NCBI RefSeq assembly: GCF_014200045.1
Contig: NZ_JACHOV010000003.1
Location: 204,001-268,000, forward strand
Direction: 5' to 3'
Origin: Rhizorhapis suberifaciens
Lineage (GTDB): Bacteria; Pseudomonadota; Alphaproteobacteria; Sphingomonadales; Sphingomonadaceae
DNA: 64,000 nt
Made by a program: the position numbers and the translations under genes. Below are positions 27,103 through 34,178 of this stretch, in pieces. The notes under the pieces were generated by a model. That model saw nothing but the letters and a program-made list of their open reading frames with translations. It was not told where the DNA came from and searched no databases. The stretch's first letter is position 1. Every line of letters starts with the position of its first letter.

Positions 27103-29682
27103 ATGCAAAGGCGCTTCAACCCGCTTGAGGCCGATGCCCGCTGGCAGAATATCTGGGATGAACGGCAGACCTTCCGTGCGTCTGACGATACCGACAAGCC
27201 GCGCAGCTATGTGCTGGAGATGTTTCCCTATCCATCCGGCCGGATCCATATCGGCCATGTGCGCAACTATTCCATGGGCGACGTGCTTGCGCGTTTCCGG
27301 CGGATGACGGGACATGAAGTGCTGCATCCCATGGGCTGGGATGCTTTTGGCATGCCCGCCGAAAATGCGGCGATGGAAAAGGGCGTGCACCCCGGCAATT
27401 GGACGCGCGACAATATCGCGTCGATGCGGGCGCAGCTCAAGAAACTCGGCTTCGCGCTTGATTGGTCGCGTGAACTCGCCACTTGCGAGCCCGATTATTA
27501 CGGCCATGAACAGGCGCTATTCCTCGATCTTTACGAACATGGGCTCGTCTATCGAAAGGAATCGGCGGTAAATTGGGACCCGGTCGACATGACCGTGCTC
27601 GCCAACGAACAGGTGATCGATGGCCGGGGTTGGCGGTCGGGTGCGCTGGTCGAAAAGCGCAAGCTGTCCCAATGGTTCCTGAAGATCACTGACTTCGCCG
27701 ATGAGTTGCTCGATGGCTTGAAAACGCTCGATCATTGGCCTGAAAAGGTCAAGCTGATGCAGGAAAACTGGATCGGCAAGAGCGTCGGACTGCAGTTTAA
27801 ATTTGAAATAGAACGCCCCTCGGCTGCCCTTGGGACAAACGGCGTTTCAAAGGATCGGTTCGTGTCGAGCGAAGTTGAGACACTATTGGCGGAAGGTCTC
27901 GAAGTCTTCTCCACTCGTCCCGACACCATATTCGGGGCAAGCTTCGCCGCCATAGCCGCCGACCATCCGATCGCGCTCGCGCTGGCGGAAGGCGACCCGC
28001 AGCTTGCCGCTTTTGCCCTGGAGTGCCGCCGGTCGGGCACCGCTGCGGCCGAGGTGGAAACTCAGGAGAAGAAGGGCTATGACACCGGTCTTTCCGTAGT
28101 CCATCCCTTCAATCCCGAATGGAAGCTGCCGCTCTTTGTCGCCAATTTCGTCCTGATGGACTATGGCACGGGCGCAGTTATGGGCGTGCCTGCACACGAC
28201 CAGCGCGACCTCGACTTCGCCCGCAAATATATGTTGCCGGTGGAGCGCGTCGTTGCGGCAAGCGGCGACGAAGCCAAGCCTATCCACGACGAGGCCTATA
28301 CCGGTCCCGGCAAGCTGGTGAACTCCGACTTCATCAACGACATGGATGTCGAGGCCGCCAAGCAAGCGGTGATTGCCCGCGCCGAAGCAGAGGGCTGGGG
28401 GCAGGGGACCACCGTGTGGCGGCTGCGCGACTGGGGCGTTTCGCGCCAGCGCTATTGGGGCACACCCATTCCAATCATCCATTGCGAGGATTGCGGCCCG
28501 GTGGCGGTGCCAAAGGACCAGCTACCCGTCAAACTGCCCGAAGATGTCAGTTTCGACATTCCCGGCAATCCGCTTGACCGCCACGCCATGTGGAAGCATG
28601 TCGCTTGCCCCACATGCGGTAAGGAAGCGCGGCGGGAAACCGACACGCTCGACACGTTCGTCGATTCAAGCTGGTATTTCATCCGCTTTGCCAGCCAGCC
28701 CGGCGACAAGGCTTTCGATCGCGAAACCGTCGAGAAATGGATGCCGGTCGGTCAATATATCGGCGGCGTGGAGCACGCGATCCTTCACTTACTCTATGCC
28801 CGCTTCTGGACCCGCGCCCTGAAGCGCATTGGTAAGCTGGATGTAGCGGAGCCTTTCACCGGCCTGTTCACCCAGGGCATGGTGACACACGAAACCTATA
28901 AGGCTCCTGACGGCCGCTGGCTCGCTCCCAACGAAGTGGAGAAGCGCGACGATCAGGTGATTATCATTGAAACCGGCGAAGCGGCGACTCTGGGACGCGT
29001 CGAGAAGATGTCCAAGTCGAAGAAGAACGTCGTCGACCCGGACGAGATCATCCAGCAATATGGCGCGGATGCGGTGCGCTGGTTCATGCTCAGCGACAGT
29101 CCGCCTGAACGCGACCTGCCCTGGACGGAGTCAGGCATTGACGGCGCATGGCGCTTCGTCAATCGCCTTTGGCGGCTGTTCGGTCAGATAGATAAAACCG
29201 CCACCGGCGAAGACAAGGCGCTCGACCGCAAGCTGCATCAGACCATTGATGGCGTGGCCAAAGACATAGAGGCGCTTTCGTTCAACAAGGCGGTGGCAAA
29301 AATCTACGAGCTTGCCAACGCGGTGGAAAAGGCGGCGCCATCGGTATCGCGTACTTGCGCCATCCGCACGCTCGCTCTGCTGGTCGCGCCCATGATTCCG
29401 CACCTGGCCGAAGAGGCATGGGCCGACATGGGGGGGCAAGGCCTGATTGCCGACGCTGCCTGGCCTGCCGTCAATCCCGCCTTGCTCGTCGACGATGAAG
29501 TCACCGTTGCCGTTCAGGTTCAGGGCAAGCTTCGCGACATTCTGACCGTCGCCAAAGGCACGCCCAAGGATGAACTGGAGCGTCTAGCGCTCGCTTCCGT
29601 CAAGATTGTCCGCACACTGGACGGGGCGACGCCCAAGAAAGTGATTGTCGTGCCCGACCGTTTGGTCAATCTAGTGATATGA
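27103..29682 (+). CDS. leuS: Leucyl-tRNA synthetase
   Basis: This class-I synthetase of about 859 residues has the HIGH motif in [15 protein letters not shown] (about 45-59), the connective editing domain at about 230-420 ([25 protein letters not shown] with the editing Asp), KMSKS in [15 protein letters not shown] (about 630) and a C-terminal anticodon/leucine-specific region ending [17 protein letters not shown] 27103 begins the conserved [15 protein letters not shown]; the in-frame GTG at 27091 is unnecessary. The stop overlaps the lptE start by 4 bases. Confidence 0.97.
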
Positions 29683-30179
29683 AGCTCCTAGCGCCTCTCC
29701 TGCTCATGACGGCCGCCCTTTCGGGCTGCGGTTTGCGCCCCCTTTATTCCGGCGGCAGTCAAGGAGCGGTGGCCCAAACCCTTCGTGATATTGAGGTAGC
29801 ACCGGTCGAGGGCAAGGCGGGTTGGCTGGTGCGCAATGCGATTAACGACCGTTTGGCGGCAGCCGACGGCTCCGCCCCGCGCTATCGGCTCGTGATCAAG
29901 CTGGACGACGATATTGAAGGTTTCGGCGTCCGCGCCGACGATACCGTGACTCGTGAGCGGCGAACCCTCCGCGCCCGCTATCAATTGGTCGAGATCGGCC
30001 GCGATGCCGTTGTGCTCGACGCCACGGCCGGATCGGATGCCGGCATCGACGTGACCAGTTCTGAATATGCAACGATCGCAGCGGAAAACACCGCGCTTGA
30101 GCGGCTGGCTCAAACCGTGGCCGATCAGATCATATCCCGGCTAGCGCTCTATGCGACGCGCAGCGCCGACGGCCAGTGA
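29679..30179 (+). CDS. lptE: LPS-assembly lipoprotein LptE
   Basis: The 166-residue lipoprotein has signal [22 protein letters not shown]; the lipobox is L-S-G-C and GLRPLY immediately after it is the LptE hallmark. LptE plugs the LptD barrel that inserts lipopolysaccharide (or the glycosphingolipid-bearing surface of sphingomonads) into the outer leaflet. The order leuS-lptE-holA is conserved across proteobacteria, which confirms the assignment despite weak sequence conservation. It overlaps both neighbours by 4 bases. Confidence 0.92.
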
Positions 30180-31201
30180 AGGCCAATAAGGGGCAGATCG
30201 AACGCGCGCTCGACGCGCCGCCGCCCGACATTCGCCTGTTCCTGTTATACGGGCCGGACGATTCCGGCGGTCAAGCGCTCGTACGCCGCCTGGAAGGGGC
30301 CATGGGTTCAGAAGCCGAGCGCATTGACCTGGATGCGGCAACGCTGAAATCTGACCCCGCCCGATTGGCCGACGAGGCTGCCTCCCTCTCCCTGTTCGGC
30401 GAGGCACGATGGATTCGCCTGACCCTCACTAACGATGACACGCTTCCTGCTATACAGGGTCTGCTGGAGGCTGAGCAGGCAGGCAACCCTGTCGTTGCTT
30501 TGGGCGGCGCGCTCAAGAACACGTCAAAAATCCTGAAGCTGGCGCTCGATCACAAGGCCGCGATGGCCTGCGCAAGCTATGTGCCGGAGGGACGGGACGC
30601 GGAAAATCTCGCGGCCGCCATTGCGCGCGAAAAGGGACTTCGGCTCGCCTCCGATCTTGCAAGGCGCATCGCAGAATTGACCGGCGGCGATCGCACGCTG
30701 ATGGCGATAGAGATCGAAAAGCTCTGCCTGTACCTGGATGCCGACCCGGAACGGCCGGTTGATGCCACGCACGAGGCTGTGGATGCACTCGCGGCCCAGG
30801 CTCCTGAAGAGGATATCGCCGCACTCGTCAATGCGGTGATGGGAGGGGATGTCCCTACCCTTCTGCGCGAATTGCGCCTCCTTGTGCAGCTGGGAACCAG
30901 CGAAGGCAGCATGCTTTGGCCCCTGCTGCGCCGGGCCCATTTGCTCGCCGCAATACGGGCCGAGTTCGACCAGAACGGCAATCTGGATGGGGCCATGGCG
31001 TCAGCGGGCAAAGCCGTTTTCTGGAAGGACAAGGCGGCGGTGCAAAGCCAGGTGCGGCTATGGACCGCGCAAGGCATTGCCCGGGTCATTCATCGCCTGG
31101 CGGAGGCCGAACGGCTTTCACGTTCCAGCCTCAATGCAGGACCAATATTGGTGGAACATGAACTTCTGGTCATAGCCAGGCAGGCGGCAAAAGGGCGGTA
31201 A
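30176..31201 (+). CDS. holA: DNA polymerase III delta subunit
   Basis: HolA opens the beta clamp within the clamp loader. The 341-residue protein starts at GTG 30176, overlapping lptE's stop (GTGA), with [20 protein letters not shown] and then FLLYGPDDSGGQALVRRL where AAA+ homologues have a Walker A. It lacks a functional P-loop, as expected for delta. Later signatures are ARWIRLTL, CASYVPEGRDAENLAAAIA, LTGGDRTLMAIEIEKLCLYL and the C-terminal collar domain. It is the last gene of the leuS operon; 144 bases separate it from the polyketide synthase. Confidence 0.93.
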   Translation: MKANKGQIERALDAPPPDIRLFLLYGPDDSGGQALVRRLEGAMGSEAERIDLDAATLKSDPARLADEAASLSLFGEARWIRLTLTNDDTLPAIQGLLEAEQAGNPVVALGGALKNTSKILKLALDHKAAMACASYVPEGRDAENLAAAIAREKGLRLASDLARRIAELTGGDRTLMAIEIEKLCLYLDADPERPVDATHEAVDALAAQAPEEDIAALVNAVMGGDVPTLLRELRLLVQLGTSEGSMLWPLLRRAHLLAAIRAEFDQNGNLDGAMASAGKAVFWKDKAAVQSQVRLWTAQGIARVIHRLAEAERLSRSSLNAGPILVEHELLVIARQAAKGR

Positions 31202-31331
31202 GCGATCTGCTGGGGCACCAAGTTACAGGTGACGCTTGTCCGGGCGTAAAATCCCGTTTGTCCTTGGCCCTGCACCCGTATATCATCCGTCAGGACAGGG
31301 CAGGCGCCGCCATCACCCGGCGGCTCGACAT

Positions 31332-31336
31332 GGAGG
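31332..31336 (+). promoter_or_regulatory. Shine-Dalgarno GGAGG deciding an ATC start
   Basis: GGAGG is followed by a 9-base spacer and then ATC at 31346, in frame with the polyketide synthase and exactly where the conserved N-terminus begins. No ATG, GTG or TTG exists in that frame between the upstream stop region and TTG 31436. The spacing makes ATC the most natural initiation codon, or the site of a base error. Confidence 0.55.
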
Positions 31337-31345
31337 GTTCGACCC

Positions 31346-32407
31346 ATCGCCACAGCTGCCTTTATCAACGCCATCGGTACGGCCGTTCCGGGTCATGACA
31401 TTCACCAGCCATTTCTCGCCTGGGCAGAAGCGCGGTTGGCGAGCGATACCGAACGTATGCTGTTCCGGCGCATGGCGCGGCGCTCGGGGATTTCGCACCG
31501 CTGGTCGATATTGCCAAAGCCCGGCGGAACCGGATCGCCGATCGATCCCGGCGGATTCTATGCTGGCGATCCCTTTCCACCCACTTCGGCACGAATGAAT
31601 CTTTACGGCCGTGCCGCGCCGGAATTGGCGATACAGGCCGTCCAAAACCTTCCGGAGCCTGTCGGCGGCATCACCCATTTGGTGGTGGCAAGCTGTACCG
31701 GCTTTGTTGCGCCCGGCGTGGACCAGATTATCGCGCGTCAACTGGGGCTTTCGGCTTCGGTCGAACGGTTACTGGTCGGCTATATGGGCTGCTATGCCGC
31801 CGTCGCAGCATTGCGTTCCGCCCGGCACATCGTTCGCTCCGATCCGGAAGCGCAGGTGCTGGTTATCTGCGTCGAACTGTCCAGCCTGCACCTGCAGCCT
31901 TATGAAAGCCTGGAAACGCTTCTGGCGGCATTGCAGTTCGGCGATGGGGCAGCCGCGGCACTGGTGACATCGGAGCCACGGGGCTTCCGGATCGACGCGC
32001 CCTTCGCGCTGACCCTGCCTGACAGCGGCGAACTCATTCAATGGCATATCGGCGATCAAGGATTTTCCATGTATCTTTCCGGGGAAGTGCCGGGCCGGAT
32101 TGCGGCGTCTCTGGCGACACCGGAGATTCGCAGTGTGATATGCCCCTTTGGCGCTGCCGAAGAGGAAGGTTGGGCCGTGCATGCGGGAGGGCGATCCATC
32201 CTGGACGCAGTCGCCCATGGCCTAGAATTGAACGATCATGCATTGGACGACAGCCGGGCGGTGCTCGACGCGTTCGGGAATATGTCCTCGGCAACGCTGA
32301 TGTTCGTCCTTGCCCGAATGTTGGAGGGCGAGCCGCCGGAATCGGGCGTCGCCCTCGCCTTCGGTCCCGGCCTCGCGGCTGAGGGCTTTCGATTTTCCCG
32401 GCCATGA
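31346..32407 (+). CDS. Type III polyketide synthase (chalcone/alkylresorcinol-synthase fold)
   Basis: With an ATC start the product has 353 residues, the usual size. The Cys-His-Asn triad is intact: Cys117 in LVVASCTGFVAPG, His279 in GWAVHAGGRSILDAV and Asn312 in FGNMSSATLMF. The C-terminal loop LAFGPGLAAEGF is the GFGPG equivalent. These enzymes extend an acyl-CoA starter with malonyl-CoA and cyclise to pyrones or resorcinols. The conserved N-terminus AAFINAIGTAVPGHDIHQPF lies in frame only upstream of TTG 31436, so a TTG start would give a 30-residue truncation. Its stop overlaps the methyltransferase ATG by 4 bases, giving a three-gene coupled operon. The starter unit is unknown. Confidence 0.88.
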   Translation: MATAAFINAIGTAVPGHDIHQPFLAWAEARLASDTERMLFRRMARRSGISHRWSILPKPGGTGSPIDPGGFYAGDPFPPTSARMNLYGRAAPELAIQAVQNLPEPVGGITHLVVASCTGFVAPGVDQIIARQLGLSASVERLLVGYMGCYAAVAALRSARHIVRSDPEAQVLVICVELSSLHLQPYESLETLLAALQFGDGAAAALVTSEPRGFRIDAPFALTLPDSGELIQWHIGDQGFSMYLSGEVPGRIAASLATPEIRSVICPFGAAEEEGWAVHAGGRSILDAVAHGLELNDHALDDSRAVLDAFGNMSSATLMFVLARMLEGEPPESGVALAFGPGLAAEGFRFSRP

Positions 32408-33087
32408 GGCAAATTCAGGCAGAGGAACAGATGGACGCGCCGGACCTGCCGGAAAGCGTCTATGCCAAGGTACTGGCGGGACTGGGGCGGGTCAATGCCG
32501 CCACCTTGGCCGCCCGGCCCACGTTGAATTTTCTGAAGCGCACCGTTCGGAAGGGCGAACCTTTCCGGCTTCTTGACGTCGGTTTCGGCGATGGCGGCAT
32601 GTTGCGCAGCATCCATCGCTGGAGCAGAAGGCGGGGTTACGATCATGAATTGGTCGGGATCGACCTCAACTTACGCAGCGAGGCGGTGGCGCGGGCGCGG
32701 CATCCGAAAGACGCACCGATTTCCTACCGAACCGGAGACTATGCCGATCTTGCAAATGAACATTGGGATTTCATCATCAGCAGCCTTGTCACTCACCATA
32801 TGGACGATGAGCAGCGGCACGCCTTTTTGCTGTTCATGGAAGGCCACGCCGCCCGAGGATGGTTTGTGAACGACCTTCATCGGCACGCCTTTTCTTATTA
32901 TGGATTCCCGCTGCTCGCCCGGCTGCTAGCGGTGCACCGCATCGTACGGCAAGATGGGCAGCTTAGCATCGCCCGGTCCTTCGAGCCAGGCGAATGGGCG
33001 TTAATCCTGGACAAGGCGGGTCTCGGCGAGGTGACCAAAATCCGCCGCTACTTCCCGTTCCGCCTATGCGTCGAACGAATCCGCTGA
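32404..33087 (+). CDS. Class-I SAM-dependent methyltransferase of the type III PKS operon
   Basis: The 227-residue product has motif I LLDVGFGDGGMLRSI (about 57-71), the acidic end of beta2 in ELVGIDLNLRSEAVA, and a motif-IV-like DFIISSLVTHHMDDE. The C-terminal half includes the aromatic segment FSYYGFPLLARLLAVHRIVR. Sitting between a type III PKS and a flavoprotein, its likely job is C- or O-methylation of the polyketide product. It overlaps the PKS stop by 4 bases and the flavoprotein start by 22 bases. Confidence 0.85.
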   Translation: MRQIQAEEQMDAPDLPESVYAKVLAGLGRVNAATLAARPTLNFLKRTVRKGEPFRLLDVGFGDGGMLRSIHRWSRRRGYDHELVGIDLNLRSEAVARARHPKDAPISYRTGDYADLANEHWDFIISSLVTHHMDDEQRHAFLLFMEGHAARGWFVNDLHRHAFSYYGFPLLARLLAVHRIVRQDGQLSIARSFEPGEWALILDKAGLGEVTKIRRYFPFRLCVERIR

Positions 33088-34178
33088 TCATCGGCGGCGG
33101 GCCGGCGGGAGCCGCCGCCGCGCTCCACCTGCTGCGTTTCGGGGCGGAACCAACCATCATTGAGCGGCAGGTAGACACTGGCGACGCGCTTTGCGGCGGG
33201 TTCCTGAGCTGGCGGACCCTGGAACAGCTGGCGGCGCTGGGAATCGGACAAGACGAGCTCGGCGGCCATGCCGTCACCACGCTTCGCTTGTTCGTGGGCA
33301 AGAGACCGTATGAAATTCCACTGCCAGCCCGCGCAATGGGCCTGTCTCGTCGGCGGCTGGACCGCCTGTTGCTGGCAACGGCAGAGCAAATGGGTGCTGT
33401 CGTCTGGCGCGGCATAGCCGTGCAAAGCTTCGGTCCCGATGGCGTCCGGCTCGACAATGGCGGACAGCTGGCGAGCGATAGCCTGTTCCTTGCTACCGGA
33501 AAGTATGATTTGCGCGGGCTTCAACGTCCGCGCCTGGCGGCAGGCGAAGATCCCATGCTTGGTTTGCGTGTCAGGCTGCCGCCATTGGAGGAGCGAACCA
33601 GGCTGATCGGCGGCCACATCGAAATCCATCTGTTCGAAGGCGGCTATTTGGGTCTGGTGCTTCAGGAGGATGGATCGGCCAACGCCTGCATGGCCGTCCG
33701 AAAGAGCGTAGTTGCGAAGACGCAAGGACAACCGGCAACGCTCTTCATGAACTTGGCTGATAGCCGTCCGGCCCTCGCCGACCGCCTCGCCGGACTTATC
33801 GCCACTACGCCCGTCGATTCCGTAGCGCACATCCCCTATGGATGGCGCGCGCGCAATGGGATGTCAGGATTGTTCCGACTGGGCGACCAAGCTGGCGTCA
33901 TTGCGTCGCTTGCTGGAGAGGGTATCGGACTGGCACTGGCGAGCGCCGAGTCTTCGGTGCGCTGTTGGGGGAATGGAGGAGGGGCTGCGGCTCCCATCTA
34001 TCAGCGCGCCTTTTCCCAAAAGTTGCGCCGGCCATTGGCCATTGCCGGGTTGATTTCTGATCTGGCAGACAAGCCGCCTTTGGGACGGATCGCTGCCGAA
34101 ATACTAAGCCGCGTACCGGCACTGAGCGACCTCATTTCCCAAGCGAGCAGGGTATGGTCCGCTCCACAAACATATTGA
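33066..34178 (+). CDS. FAD-dependent oxidoreductase/hydroxylase of the type III PKS operon
   Basis: This is a 370-residue protein of the geranylgeranyl-reductase/PHBH-like flavoprotein superfamily. The dinucleotide-binding motif [18 protein letters not shown] is at about 6-23, an [15 protein letters not shown] loop follows, and the second FAD motif [20 protein letters not shown] (G-D, G-E-G-I) is at about 268-287. ATG 33066 starts the conserved fold, inside the end of the methyltransferase gene. A probable reaction is hydroxylation or reduction of the aromatic or pyrone product made by the upstream enzymes. In Streptomyces griseus the srs operon combines the same three activities. Confidence 0.85.

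Follow-up and report, generated by a model that had tools for sequence, protein, structure and literature searches.

We studied the start of a type III polyketide synthase (PKS) gene of Rhizorhapis suberifaciens within a 64,000-nucleotide stretch of its genome (hereafter the window). The gene is most probably translated from an AUC codon at position 31346, by way of a strong Shine-Dalgarno (SD) sequence, and an AUC or AUU start appears to be a conserved trait of the lineage in which the PKS operon lies directly behind holA; we put the probability of this reading at about 87%. From comparison of sequences it is very likely that the ATC start as such is real and conserved. Having an AUH codon after an SD motif, in an arrangement found across species, the gene seems to belong among those with a conserved non-canonical start, and would be a new case of a known phenomenon in which such a start leads a biosynthetic operon.

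The PKS reading frame and its putative start

The PKS frame of the window was open from 31250 to 32407 on the positive strand, with an in-frame stop at 31247-31249 upstream and TGA at 32405-32407 closing it. The initial annotation had stated that the frame lacks ATG, GTG and TTG ahead of TTG 31436, and the sequence bore this out: none lay in the interval from the upstream stop to the conserved N-terminus, and TTG 31436 was the first canonical codon of the frame. That annotation had also correctly placed a GGAGG (31332-31336) nine bases before ATC 31346, the intervening bases being 31337-31345, and a conserved N-terminus upstream of TTG 31436. The latter corresponds to the peptide AAFINAIGTAVPGHDIHQPF, encoded at 31355-31414, whose residues P14, H19 and F22 were invariant in 41 aligned proteins. 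A start at ATC 31346 would give the N-terminus (M)ATAAFINAIGTAVPGHDIH, i.e., (Met-)Ala-Thr-Ala-Ala-Phe. The features of the region were as follows:

29679-30179, positive strand: lptE, in the conserved order lptE-holA-PKS (PF04390; synteny)
30176-31201, positive strand: holA (DNA polymerase III delta), with a GTG start, directly 5' of the PKS (TIGR01128 above cut-off; synteny)
31247-31249, positive strand: in-frame stop before the PKS frame (sequence)
31258-31286, positive strand: promoter-like site TTGTCC-17-TATCAT (consensus match only)
31332-31336, positive strand: Shine-Dalgarno sequence GGAGG (matches the genome's own 16S tail; duplex energy)
31337-31345, positive strand: nine-base spacer (sequence)
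31346-31348, positive strand: ATC, probable PKS initiation codon (in frame, with usable SD spacing; ATC/ATT aligned in 13 Sphingobium orthologues)
31346-32407, positive strand: type III polyketide synthase, 353 codons including ATC, then the stop (Chal_sti_synt_N and Chal_sti_synt_C)
31436-31438, positive strand: TTG, first canonical in-frame codon, rejected as the start (would delete the conserved N-terminus)
32404-33087, positive strand: methyltransferase (Methyltransf_11), its ATG overlapping the PKS stop (ATGA)
33066-34178, positive strand: FAD-dependent oxidoreductase, overlapping the end of the methyltransferase; start chosen by homology

The 16S tail GGATCACCTCCTTT was present in the window's own genome, so that GGAGG suits this organism as an SD sequence. 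The SD duplex for ATC 31346 was calculated at -9.8 kcal/mol, which exceeds in strength every one of the 96 orthologues that have a single canonical candidate. One promoter-like site was found, compared with a mean of 0.1 in shuffled sequences, as a match to the consensus only. RNA folding of 31300-31390 as a whole gave a stability no better than that of shuffled sequences (z 0.34). At 31335-31345 (GGGTTCGACCC) a possible 4-bp hairpin, GGGU-UCG-ACCC, overlapped the SD and was part of the minimum-energy fold, and by eye short GG...CC pairs seemed possible at the same place in several relatives. The SD also overlaps with an ATG at 31330, which lies in a different frame that, by eye, opens only 22 codons.

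The gene product matched the profiles PF00195 (87.2 bits) and PF02797 (71.5 bits), both with cut-offs of 27, and gave chalcone-synthase-like matches in the PDB (best E 3.5e-39). Residues C148, H278 and N311 (numbering from codon 31349), which we take to be the Cys-His-Asn catalytic triad of type III PKS, were invariant in the 41 aligned proteins. Judged by its sequence, the protein is a member of the type III polyketide synthases (chalcone synthase superfamily). The narrower identity of DpgA (3,5-dihydroxyphenylacetyl-CoA synthase) was rejected, NF042429 scoring 107.9 bits vs a cut-off of 425. Downstream, the ATGA overlap of the methyltransferase start with the PKS stop means that translation of the two genes may be coupled, and for the oxidoreductase the nearest NCBIfam models were of the geranylgeranyl-reductase type, with scores below the cut-off.

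An AlphaFold model of the full PKS (41 sequences) had a mean pLDDT of 94.0, with a strand at residues 5-12 and a helix at residues 19-29. This bears on the conventional choice of start, namely that translation begins at TTG 31436 or at a later ATG and yields a protein 30 or more residues shorter. As TTG 31436 is the first canonical in-frame codon, a standard gene caller would presumably pick it, and the prediction of the initial annotation that automatic annotation would cut 30 residues from the PKS is plausible. A real start at this codon is nevertheless very unlikely. TTG 31436 corresponds to residue 30, so that a start there loses this first strand and first helix, together with the invariant P14, H19 and F22; selection at the protein level acts on the preceding residues, as seen from low dN vs dS against seven relatives (see below); and the TTG codon itself was present in only 3 of 17 compared rows. 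Orthologues starting at this position, which would have argued for the shorter protein, were not seen.

Start codons in orthologous operons

Several searches were combined, of which the family search alone matched 242 of 397 genomes, and the closer matches, not every match, were taken to compare PKS 5' ends. These comprised 150 loci with usable matches and 133 distinct 5' ends, after dropping one locus without the N-terminus (L003). Matches were present in 46 of the 94 genomes of the Sphingobium genus group, whose 42 close places (at least 54% identity, in 41 genomes) were all included. Seventy-three of the 133 orthologues had at least 900 bases upstream: holA lay directly upstream in 16 (the window, L033, L037, L038, L040, L041, L043, L044, L045, L046, L052, L058, L064, L065, L081 and L088), and the remaining 57 were at other loci. 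All 16 holA-linked loci had lptE, holA, PKS, methyltransferase and oxidoreductase in common, and leuS too where the locus reached that far. Within its genus, a 5' end was available for the window's species alone, the assembly of the one genus-mate (G001) covering just the C-terminal half of the gene; the ATC or ATT codons at the matching place come from 13 Sphingobium genomes, one per species.

By our judgement of the aligned sequences, an ATC or ATT start probably follows an SD motif in 14 of the 16 holA-linked orthologues. The codon was ATC in the window, L033 and L037, and ATT in L038 and L040, while the other nine presented AAAGG, then a spacer ending in ATC (AAC in L046), and then ATT; L045, one of these nine, is from S. 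xenophagum. In this nine-row subgroup ATT is preferred over ATC as the start because L046 has AAC instead of the latter and keeps the ATT. In L088 an in-frame TAA precedes the ATC by four codons, just before the block, so that ATC and ATT are the near candidates for its start. From the 5' stop to the conserved N-terminus, a canonical start was wholly absent in 7 of the 133 distinct 5' ends (the window, L043, L045, L065, L081, L088 and L130). Six of these seven, the window included, belong to the 16 holA-linked loci, vs 0 of the 57 at other loci, a pattern that goes beyond chance. At all 16 of these loci holA has a canonical codon where its first residue aligns, and the methyltransferase has one close to its aligned start (16/16 each). 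The comparison of orthologous start codons that the initial annotation had proposed as a check thus found ATC or ATT in independent genomes at the same locus, several of them lacking any canonical start, and gene callers limited to ATG, GTG and TTG would miss the right PKS start in at least 6 of these genomes.

The SD motifs of the Sphingobium ATT subgroup had duplex energies of -4.2 to -4.3 kcal/mol, which is average, the canonical median being -4.2. Four members of this subgroup (L044, L046, L052 and L058) had a canonical codon farther out, 20-31 codons ahead of the anchor of the alignment, within sequence that behaves as non-coding. In four others of the 14 (L033, L037, L038 and L040) an in-frame GTG was found inside AAGGTG. 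Taken as the SD for the ATC or ATT, AAGGTG gave -6.2 to -6.4 kcal/mol, vs -2.7 to +0.3 kcal/mol for the GTG itself as the start. Further GTGs occurred in L038; one of them, which precedes the anchor by four codons and would use the same SD at a spacing of 11, may be its start.

The GTG of these four rows aligns with GTT 31337 of the window, and GTC and GTT starts are described for sigR in excerpts of PMC5472188; hence one could propose a GUU start at 31337 like that inferred for some Streptomyces sigR genes. We consider this as improbable as the TTG start. The window SD would touch GTT 31337, with zero spacer, the relatives' GTG in the same column shows little SD pairing (the weak values given above), and all nine rows of the ATT subgroup read CAG at this position of the alignment (in L088 once a one-codon shortening is taken into account). 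The least probable alternative that we considered is initiation at ATG 31330 in its own frame followed by a shift into the PKS frame. That ATG exists and overlaps the SD, but an SD of its own was absent by eye, and none of the 15 holA-linked relatives has an ATG equally far from the anchor. AUC 31346 remains the preferred start over both.

Canonical starts were found in 2 of the 16 holA-linked loci, ATG in L041 and GTG in L064. Compared by eye with L038 and L040, L064 (genome G451) carries a one-base deletion that shifts its ATT out of the PKS frame; it also contains a GTG in frame, and judged from its sequence this locus is possibly a natural switch back to a canonical start. L130 (genome G225), which stood apart in the tree, had no canonical in-frame start and a CTG where three relatives have TTG; this CTG could represent a further non-canonical start, or else a fault of the assembly. 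The 96 rows with a single canonical candidate, all outside the 14, comprised 44 ATG, 36 GTG and 16 TTG, so that GTG and TTG together made up over half. The PKS family in general may perhaps be tilted towards weaker starts.

Selection on the gene and origin of the start

Whole-gene dN/dS values (NG86) for the PKS ranged from 0.095 to 0.19 in 9 pairs, and the window compared with its genus-mate over 184 codons gave dN 0.16 and dS 2.6, the latter saturated. For 24 of the codons that a TTG start would lose, comparison of the window with seven relatives gave dN 0.16-0.25 and dS 0.78-1.84; in an eighth comparison dS was not usable. These values also bear on the possibility that the ATC is a sequencing error for ATG, from which it differs by one base, or a recent start loss in a dying gene. 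Such an explanation is, if anything, even less probable than the TTG or GTT starts: ATC or ATT occupies the matching place in 13 Sphingobium genomes, the PKS frame is intact with its catalytic residues invariant, and dN/dS is low both in the relatives and against the genus-mate. The initial annotation had offered a rare AUC start and a base error or disabled gene as alternatives. The first was favoured by the ATC/ATT codons at the same locus and by the purifying selection, and the second was not.

Within the ATT subgroup we compared differences per codon position (first/second/third) along the 5' region, using eight rows before the anchor (L088 was left out for its shorter spacing) and nine after it. 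Upstream of the SD the values were.34/.24/.33 (eight rows), in the four codons just before ATT they fell to 0/.125/0, with two single changes, in L065 and L046, and the ATT itself was identical in all nine rows. The five codons after ATT (.27/.21/.38) showed little protein-type constraint, which fits a variable N-terminal tail and by itself is no proof of translation. From the anchor on, 36 codons gave.10/.09/.36, with median dN.09 and dS.76 (nine rows). Therefore, the pre-start block has hardly changed, and constraint of the protein type becomes clear once the conserved N-terminus is reached.

A quick tree of the PKS only (133 rows) placed the window with the holA-linked rows plus L066, a group of 17 rows with an SH-aLRT of 89, and a more careful PKS-only tree (61 rows) did not resolve the window's placement. 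When PKS, methyltransferase and oxidoreductase were combined (57 rows), the 16 holA-linked rows formed one clade (SH-aLRT 95), and a careful operon tree of 36 of these 57 rows likewise recovered the 12 holA-linked rows it contained as a clade (bootstrap 99, SH-aLRT 94). The start codon required a minimum of 3 changes on the careful operon tree, one gain plus two losses being as short as two gains plus one loss, and a minimum of 4 on the careful PKS-only tree. AUU gains are very rare elsewhere, with 1 among 61,358 ancestral AUG starts and 1 among 5,080 ancestral GUG starts according to excerpts of PMC5622118, and this rarity favours one gain. Given the equally short three-change histories, a shared origin is likely for the ATC of the window, though not proven. 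Overall, the start was kept in 14 species of at least 2 genera, in both ATC and ATT form, with two apparent returns to ATG or GTG.

Known AUH starts and possible consequences for expression

Binns and Masters (2002) reportedly found that the AUU start of E. coli pcnB limits its expression; the codon is that of several PKS relatives, and the gene is a different one. Further examples are the AUU, AUC or AUA starts of infC, found in E. coli and Streptomyces (excerpts of PMC5472188), in Xanthomonas as ATT (excerpts of PMC5559785) and in S. aureus as AUA (excerpts of PMC13009471). We inspected infC in the genomes compared here. That of the window's genome (L153, G000:C4:48508-49005) reads GATAGGAGATACTGCT ATA CGT CCC CCG ATG, and an ATA eight bases after GGAG was found in this genome and in 14 of 14 Sphingobium genomes (L155-L168), i.e., in 15 of 15, in each of which a canonical ATG follows four codons on. 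Since the ATA after GGAG is kept across genomes, it is probably the infC start, as in S. aureus; the later ATG is a less probable one. The window PKS thus resembles infC, apparently AUA-started in these genomes, in having an AUH codon after an SD; they differ in that infC encodes IF3 itself and autoregulates, whereas no connection between the PKS and translation is known.

Other conserved non-canonical starts offer further parallels. Streptomyces sigR starts with GTC in 32 of 34 species and with GTT in 2 (excerpts of PMC5472188). According to the same excerpts, sigR resembles the PKS in its conserved non-canonical start and strong conserved ribosome binding site, and it had been misannotated; it differs in codon, phylum and gene class (a sigma factor), and in its demonstrated repression by IF3. 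The staphylococcal genes cvfC1 (AUU) and ccpN (AUA) have conserved starts with strong SD sequences, and in S. aureus reporters AUU and AUA gave about 10% of the AUG level in poor medium (both in excerpts of PMC13009471). As described there, cvfC1 is, like the PKS, the first gene of an operon with a conserved non-canonical start and a strong SD; but cvfC1 encodes a small putative regulator and ccpN a repressor, whereas the PKS is a biosynthetic enzyme of an alphaproteobacterium, with a start codon that varies with genomic location. In Borrelia burgdorferi, pncA has an AUU start, and its annotation removes a needed N-terminus (excerpts of PMC13398362). This case is similar to the PKS in being a metabolic enzyme with an AUH start, and different in being, as far as those excerpts go, a plasmid gene in one species with no tie to synteny. 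From the excerpted sources, conserved non-canonical starts outside infC appear to be few among the cases found, and mostly in regulators. Searches on AUC/AUU starts, IF3 and sphingomonad type III PKS, covering few subscription journals, yielded no mention of the PKS start codon among the matches listed, and the excerpts of PMC11445065 and PMC11497404 held no AUC/AUU start case.

By analogy, expression of the window gene could proceed as follows. The strong SD GGAGG would position the ribosome so that AUC 31346 is selected as the start, fMet-tRNA would pair imperfectly with AUC, and the full-length enzyme would begin with formyl-methionine. IF3, which disfavours initiation complexes on such codons (excerpts of PMC5472188), would disfavour the AUC complex and keep PKS output low, and the ATGA overlap would pass this low rate on to the methyltransferase. 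In other bacteria AUC and AUU are inefficient starts, which makes it probable that this one limits PKS output, and the AUC codon may set expression of the operon very low, as the initial annotation had suggested. In the lineage with the operon behind lptE-holA (the window plus part of Sphingobium), AUC or AUU probably serves in most members.

It is a more tentative idea, and on balance an unlikely one, that selection has made the AUC/AUU start into an IF3-dependent brake on the whole polyketide operon, fixed when the operon arrived behind leuS-lptE-holA. If this were true, secondary metabolism and infC (apparently AUA) would be under the same control of initiation fidelity, and a fall in IF3 would raise both the polyketide operon and infC. 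The system makes it possible to ask why so poor a start has been retained, whether for a constant low output, for a switch that responds to IF3, or through historical accident once the operon had moved. As a separate observation, annotated relatives were also found on plasmid records, the best of them from Sphingobium, under the names chalcone synthase or type III polyketide synthase.
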